This document shows positions 225 to 493 of a stretch of DNA of 64,000 bases, one piece after another. The notes under the pieces were generated by a model that made no database searches, had not been told where the DNA came from, and was given only the letters and a program-made list of their open reading frames with translations. The stretch is taken from the NCBI RefSeq assembly GCF_000217955.3, contig NZ_AFOY02000019.1, positions 496,001 to 560,000 of the forward strand, read 5' to 3'. A program made the position numbers and the translations under genes. Every line of letters begins with the position of its first letter. The stretch's first letter is position 1. This DNA is from Pseudomonas fluorescens HK44. GTDB lineage: Bacteria; Pseudomonadota; Gammaproteobacteria; Pseudomonadales; Pseudomonadaceae.

Positions 225-458
225 AGGTAGAACTCCATCCTGATTAAGAAGAGAGCGACCGCTCAATCGTCGCCAAACGATATGGGTGGCAGCTGTACGC
301 AGGTTGGCGAACCGGGGATGGAGACCGGCAGACCCGAAGGTCTCCCGCGCACAGCTGCCATAAAGCAGCCTTGCGGGTGCAAAAACGCGTGCAAGAGAGC
401 ACAGAGCTTTTGCATCACATCCCCCGAGTCGCCAAACCCGAATCGCCATGTGGGCGAC
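225..458 (-). promoter_or_regulatory. Structured 5' leader with switch-like alternative pairings
   Basis: About 230 nt of untranslated RNA is expected between the promoter at 465-493 and the ATG at 224. A perfect 9-bp closing stem pairs 351-359 with 288-296 (GGCAGCUGU/ACAGCUGCC). Inside it, minus-strand GGAGACC (345-339) can pair with GGUCUCC (326-320). Alternatively AGACC (343-339) can fold on GGUCU (334-330) across a UUCG tetraloop, which frees 326-320. The freed CUCCAUCC (323-316) is an exact 8-nt complement of the Shine-Dalgarno GGAUGGAG (240-233). A further stem upstream pairs 408-414 with 378-384 (UGCAAAA/UUUUGCA) around an inner GUGC/GCAC. No long open frame here has a usable ribosome site. 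Confidence 0.6.
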
Positions 459-464
459 GGGCGA

Positions 465-493
465 ACTATAAGCGCCATTCTCTGGAGCGACAA
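465..493 (-). promoter_or_regulatory. Sigma70-type promoter for the leader RNA
   Basis: On the minus strand TTGTCG (493-488) and TATAGT (470-465) are separated by exactly 17 nt. The expected start is near 458, so the transcript would begin just before the structured leader. It is the best sigma70 match I noticed in this intergenic region. Confidence 0.6.

Follow-up and report, generated by a model that had tools for sequence, protein, structure and literature searches.

The leader of a small gene at the edge of a 64,000-nucleotide stretch of Pseudomonas fluorescens HK44 DNA (hereafter the window) is a C4 antisense RNA and not the unknown riboswitch for which a preliminary description of the sequence had taken it. 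The window very probably carries a complete chromosomal C4 cassette like that of the immI operon in phage P1; its a'/b' code is private and would silence its own gene. The same genome holds 26 C4 matches, 24 of them above the cut-off, and some two dozen C4 cassettes in one bacterium is unexpected. The C4 family is known; the multi-copy, privately coded set in Pseudomonas is new here, and a search of open-licence PMC papers found none on C4 cassettes as a multi-copy Pseudomonas family.

The C4 cassette in the window

All parts of the cassette lie on the minus strand. A sigma70-type promoter (465-493; TTGTCG at 493-488, 17-nt spacing, TATAGT at 470-465) stands exactly where it had been proposed, and this promoter-like site scores 9/12 (average in shuffled regions, 0.1). 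A region resembling the c4-a1b1 leader (RF03163) at 421-471 comprises a hairpin at 458-443 and the a1 hairpin at 440-425, and it matches its family with 36.5 bits (E 1.6e-7), short of the gathering score of 46.7. The a1 site TTGGCGA (429-435) is an exact 7-nt complement of a'. A probable b1 site, GGGGATG (418-424), is complementary to CATCCCC of the b' loop plus P3 arm; it is short, with 5 nt (GGATG, score 13) pairing with the loop alone, and its duplex is predicted at -14.0 kcal/mol. Upstream of C4 there is also a terminator-like hairpin (403-388) with a U tract (together 381-403); one such hairpin was found against 0.7 expected, and its -9.0 kcal/mol was equalled by 1 of 20 shuffles.

The C4 RNA (RF01695) occupies 282-365, with its P1 stem, a P2 UUCG hairpin and a P3 hairpin that bears the b' loop. 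It matches the covariance model with 81.5 bits (E 2.1e-16; cut-off 45), so the leader does belong to a known class, where the preliminary description had seen no match to any riboswitch class. The minimum-energy fold of this part, at -45.7 kcal/mol, is the family structure, and the whole leader folds better than 200 of 200 shuffles (z -4.5). The motifs picked out in the preliminary description (GGAGACC at 345-339, GGTCTCC at 326-320, AGACC-TTCG-GGTCT at 343-330, CTCCATCC at 323-316 and GGATGGAG at 240-233) were all located exactly, and the AGACC-UUCG-GGUCU hairpin (343-330) is the conserved P2 hairpin of C4. The closing stem is likewise real, not as a separate 9-bp element but as part of the 17-pair P1 helix.

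The segment a', UCGCCAA, lies at 304-310, and b', CUCCAUCC (CTCCATCC as DNA), forms the P3 loop at 316-323. On the 3' side of C4, the a2 site TTGGCGA (270-276) completes the pair a'/a2 (TCGCCAA/TTGGCGA), and the b2 site GGATGGAG (233-240), an exact 8-nt complement of b', is the Shine-Dalgarno region, so that b2 covers the ribosome site. The small gene starts with ATG at 224, 57 nt from the C4 match (47 nt in phage P1), and occupies 1-224 before it runs beyond the window edge. It had been called truncated; the edge alone cuts it, and the full 90-aa open reading frame lies at G000:C23:495955-496224. Both RNase P signals, GG and ACC, are present in this C4 copy.

In GenBank, phage P1 has annotations for a1, b1, c4, a2, b2 and icd, with a1 and b1 marked as putative. 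As a positive control, our pairing script was given the C4 coordinates of phage P1 alone; it returned a1 and a2 (TTGACAG) exactly, b1 off by one base and a 12-nt stretch covering b2. Since the annotated sites were recovered in this way, the CUCCAUCC/GGAUGGAG pair of the preliminary description is the b'/b2 pair of the phage P1 C4 type. The order of elements in the window leader also occurs in phage P1 and in two Pseudomonas phage records, and DNA resembling the leader turned up in 27 phage records at E up to 0.01. The cassette shares with the immI C4 of P1/P7 (RF01695, RF03163; compared with P1) the RNA fold, the order a1-b1-C4-a2-b2-gene, in which b1 is a probable site here, and the placement of b2 at the ribosome site. 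It differs in that the Pseudomonas cassettes are chromosomal and exist in many copies with private codes, and in its genes: the phage has icd and ant behind C4, whereas Pseudomonas has small DUF-type genes, in the window the 90-aa gene.

Copy number across genomes

In a survey of 36 genomes of the genus, including that of HK44, C4 was found in 32, with a median of 13.5 and a maximum of 42 copies, and at least ten copies were found in 23. In a class-wide draw of 274 genomes, 17 besides HK44 had 1 to 6 copies. The counts of both surveys are lower bounds because the filters were stricter and the candidates scored per genome were limited (62; 15). A scan of genomes with an 18-nt pattern matched mostly unrelated organisms, and its result was not used. 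Cassettes also cluster within a few kb, at G005:C1:3628832-3630617 and G019:C1:1820921-1827285; codes differ among the three copies examined in the G019 cluster, and one code is common to two neighbours in G005.

Passages of PMC2864571 place c4 in Proteobacteria and phages and c4-a1b1 in gamma-Proteobacteria and phages, and in the part of PMC5320573 that we cite it is the reference for C4 in Pseudomonadales. C4 of phage P1 is described in passages of PMC8198154 and PMC12197685. A close precedent is Acinetobacter baumannii, for which the same part of PMC5320573 reports 21 C4-like sRNAs that appear to be processed and leaves their targets open. These Group 1 sRNAs resemble the Pseudomonas set in the large number of C4-like RNAs per genome, the apparent processing and a variable a' loop; unlike them, most Pseudomonas copies have a matched target and gene.

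Private complementarity between C4 and its targets

Pairing of each C4 with its own and with foreign targets was compared for the 24 C4 above the cut-off (of 26) in HK44 and for the best 30 of 42 in each of the genomes G005 and G019. With a'+b' scored against a2+b2, the own target ranked strictly first for 22 of the 24 C4 RNAs of HK44 and for 27 of the best 30 taken from each of G005 and G019; none of 5000 permutations reached the observed mean of own pairing. Single segments were less discriminating because codes are partly shared, with the own target strictly best for 16/24 by b' alone and for 7/24 by a' alone. This analysis superseded an earlier energy matrix that included P3 stem letters and in which the own target was best in 9/24 (b'/b2) and 4/24 (a'/a2).

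Exact complements were counted in 105 cassettes, namely these 84 plus 22 from loci with homologues of the window gene, minus one duplicate. A 6-mer complement of a' occurs at a2 in 102 cassettes (foreign, 12.5%) and at a1 in 101 (foreign, 14.0%), the same 6-mer is found at both sites in 99, and 24 distinct a' 6-mers are matched at a2. A 7-mer complement of b' occurs at b2 in 79/105 (foreign, 3.8%) and at b1 in 44/105 (foreign, 3.2%). The 8-nt complementarity to the Shine-Dalgarno region, on which the preliminary description had centred, is well beyond chance because an exact 8-nt complement of b' stands near the gene start in 50/105 own leaders and in 1.1% of foreign combinations.

The structure has also been kept through compensated change. 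In the 105 cassettes the P1 helix is 98.3% paired, against 94.8% when the 3' arms are dealt anew, and double changes occur at 12 of its 17 pairs; the P2 helix is 95-99% paired per pair. Covariation support was not found for P3, which is 88.8% paired versus 88.4% dealt anew. GG stands at the expected RNase P cut in 104/105 cassettes and ACC after the stem in 101/105, counts that are partly circular in Rfam matches, since the consensus of the family itself includes both signals. Among the 93 of 105 cassettes that could be anchored (12 could not), 77 have a TANNNT box just 5' of the a1 hairpin, compared with 175 of 4000 random 15-nt pieces, and 65 of the 77 have TTG 14-25 nt upstream of that box.

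The codes change faster than the genes behind them. Pairs within a genome (HK44, G005 and G019) were compared for the 91 of 105 cassettes with a gene of at least 70 aa. In the 32 pairs whose proteins share 85% identity or more, which are not independent events because members are shared between pairs, b' differs in 32/32 and a' in 26/32; complementary runs average 7.8 nt for own and 4.0 nt for cross combinations, and in 24/32 each of the two own runs is longer than either cross run. Two loci (L018, L020) have identical proteins and unlike codes, and two neighbours in G019 (L078, L079) behave likewise; the neighbours L064 and L065 in G005 have one common code. The nearest relatives of the window cassette were compared at 20 loci including its own; among the 19 others the C4 core was found in 15 and not in 4. 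In these 15 the leader is 83-87% identical, b' differs from that of the window cassette and changes together with the region before the start codon, and the new b' has an exact 6-8 nt complement downstream. L110, for wrong coordinates, and L120, for a stop codon, were excluded from another comparison.

Genes behind C4

An ATG open reading frame of at least 70 aa starts 35-75 nt 3' of C4 in 91/105 cassettes, against 22 at a control place. For counting gene families, a1b1 matches below the cut-off were included, up to E 1. DUF6124 has 22 matches in HK44, 12 behind C4 and 7 behind a1b1 without C4, and DUF3077 has 5, 4 of them behind C4; together, 23 of 27 matches are behind a C4 or a1b1 leader. 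One open reading frame, matched by both families, is behind neither. At two loci, L016 and L008, C4 targets a short open reading frame upstream of a DUF3077 gene, in L016 overlapping the DUF3077 start, an order that recalls icd-ant of phage P1. Searches of open-licence PMC papers found none on DUF6124 and one on DUF3077, which concerns a mutated pseudogene of this family in Pseudomonas putida.

The 90-aa protein of the window has no match in Pfam, PHROG, PADLOC or NCBIfam, and a function search by sequence gave none below E 0.1. Its predicted two-helix model (pLDDT 82.6) has no match at E <=0.001 in PDB or viral structures. By eye, its gene belongs to a family that looks similar to the DUF6124 and DUF3077 genes but is unnamed. 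Homologues occur in 77 of 149 genomes of the genus, including HK44. The earlier remark that similar DNA precedes other short genes in the genus was right. The best homologues in 29 other genomes have a C4 above the cut-off at 22 loci; of the seven loci without a C4 match, six have an a1b1-type leader by eye and one is the second gene of an operon. In tblastn searches (E up to 1e-5), three such small proteins matched none, one and none of 50,697 phage records.

The chromosomal position of the window cassette looks ordinary. An RHS-core-like open reading frame lies behind it, beyond the window start (L010:3-989, minus strand). A link between the cassettes and RHS was considered and rejected, as an RHS-core-like motif is found behind one of the 24 cassettes in HK44, that of the window alone. 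The window also contains an RsmY small RNA (RF00195; 32375-32492, plus strand, 127 bits).

Leaders without C4

Sixteen a1b1 matches in HK44 are without one of the 24 C4, and two of these adjoin the two C4 matches below the cut-off. Of the 14 a1b1 stretches that were inspected, L038 and L040 did not resemble the others and were excluded, and the remaining twelve (L027-L037, L039) are leaders closely before genes, without C4. Nine of the twelve genes are DUF6124 or window-family members among the matches listed (9 of 13 for the window family). By pairing score, the strongest candidate for control of one locus by another in trans is the C4 of L014 with the leader L033, with a score of 40, compared with 34 for the best of 60 foreign C4 RNAs. 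Trans control of all twelve leaders was rejected, as only this combination stands out: L034 with L007 scores 38 against up to 39 for foreign C4, L032 with L005 scores 33 against 31, and for the remaining nine the foreign C4 scores are equal or higher.

A possible attenuator ahead of C4

In phage P1, b1 runs into TGCGG, which can pair with CCGCA; a second GCGG, followed by a U tract, is an alternative partner of CCGCA, and all these segments lie upstream of C4. This three-segment layout was found in 14 of 108 cassettes (11/105 chromosomal, 3/3 phage), compared with a mean of 0.9 and a maximum of 2 in shuffles and 2 on the reverse strand. The window copy is not among the 14; a search for the strict layout there gave the terminator-like hairpin only. 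The viral sample consisted of at least 120 stretches, of which 116 had flanks, 100 were distinct and 68 had a P1-like stem. Among the viral matches listed, 46 of these 68 have the layout (shuffles: mean 1.8, maximum 5); b1 could be placed in 43 of the 46 and overlaps segment 1 in 42. An attenuator in every cassette is ruled out by the contrast between 11/105 chromosomal cassettes and 46/68 viral ones among the matches listed. Runs of at least five T upstream of C4 are present in 33/84 cassettes (16/24, 10/30 and 7/30 in the three genomes) against 233 of 3698 background pieces, and their hairpins are modest.

Two further comparisons were made among the viral matches listed. Of the 61 with b1 and a T tract, a set conditioned on both, 43 had distinct codes; when segments were placed regardless of pairing, the layout was found in 37/43 and with a foreign segment 1 in 45%; the predominance of two sequence types limits this contrast. 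Static folds of the full leader predict the terminator in 28/37 with b1 free and in 37/37 with b1 blocked, and the antiterminator despite a blocked b1 in 33/37. Static folding thus backs a switch only in part, and modestly.

Plasmids pT181 and pIP501 have attenuators in which an antisense RNA on the nascent leader favours a terminator over an antiterminator. The C4 leader would be similar in that binding of C4 to b1 may favour termination upstream of C4; it would differ in that C4 would reduce its own synthesis. The overlap of b1 with an antiterminator arm, seen in most viral cassettes and in a minority of those on chromosomes, suggests such feedback attenuation. The prediction is strong for the viral cassettes and not clear for the window copy, which lacks the strict layout. 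The a1/b1 idea may already have been raised in the original C4 papers, and no open-licence PMC paper was found that links C4 to attenuation or premature termination.

Discussion

How might the cassette in the window work? A single promoter would give one transcript with the order a1b1, C4, a2b2 and the small gene. The C4 part would fold independently of the rest, RNase P probably excises it, a' would then pair with a2 and b' with b2, and the 90-aa gene would be silent for as long as C4 is present. The earlier expectation that a structured leader with an anti-Shine-Dalgarno segment controls translation is supported in the form of this C4 layout, as judged from sequence. Since most a'/b' codes are private to their own targets, silencing by each C4 should be largely confined to the gene behind it.

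The original proposal, a riboswitch that binds a ligand and works through an anti-Shine-Dalgarno platform, is now very improbable. The leader is indeed structured, the anti-Shine-Dalgarno segment is exact and mutually exclusive pairings can be drawn, yet the leader belongs to the known C4 family, and its unpaired segments are variable and track their targets. No aptamer is apparent, nor a conserved core independent of the targets, a' and b' varying in step with them. Nor is the alternative pairing of GGAGACC with GGUCUCC conserved: when the P2 5' arm was scored against the P3 loop in the 105 cassettes, own combinations averaged 10.68 and foreign ones 10.60, a test that covered five of the seven proposed pairs because it used the loop alone and omitted the P3 arm, and at least seven pairs formed in 16/105. 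A decayed prophage remnant without function is slightly less probable still. C4 is a phage immunity RNA, which would fit such an origin; against decay, most cassettes show changes that are compensated at several of their sites, and gene homologues occur in 77/149 genomes. By eye the neighbouring open reading frames resemble genes for a sigma factor, its anti-sigma counterpart and an RHS-type protein, and not phage genes.

Because C4 and its target lie on one transcript, pairing could also act in cis, with b' binding b2 within the same molecule and no free C4 acting. The 3' strand of the P1 helix may pair with a segment behind C4, which would set C4 against a hairpin that presents a2. A complement of this strand (score at least 18) is found behind C4 in 20/24, 17/30 and 14/30 cassettes, and in none of the gene-body controls. 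In the window, however, this complement is weak (score 11), and it is hardly private, permutations doing as well in 168, 466 and 7 of 5000 cases (HK44, G005 and G019). The cassettes retain their RNase P signals, and the C4-like RNAs of Acinetobacter appear processed in RNA-seq in the passages cited from PMC5320573. A switch acting in cis only is therefore unlikely, if somewhat less so than the riboswitch. CTCC upstream of the GGAG ribosome site is seen in 11/24 cassettes in HK44 (10/30 and 12/30 elsewhere) and is weak or absent in the window.

Thus, the reading that we prefer is a C4 antisense RNA, probably released from its own transcript, with a private code for its own gene. We put at about even odds the broader idea that in Pseudomonas a phage immunity RNA gave rise to chromosomal modules, up to dozens of them, that are insulated from one another and govern a single group of small proteins; selection for insulation would speed the codes past the genes, and a1/b1 would serve as a sensor of C4 in an attenuator through which C4 limits its own production.

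The cassettes provide natural sets of mostly non-interfering RNA repressors in a single cell (median 13.5 and up to 42, as lower bounds) and would thereby allow a study of how duplicated RNA regulators keep their specificities separate. They also tie DUF6124 and DUF3077 to one regulator and give a testable role to the a1 and b1 sites, which are called putative in the phage P1 record.
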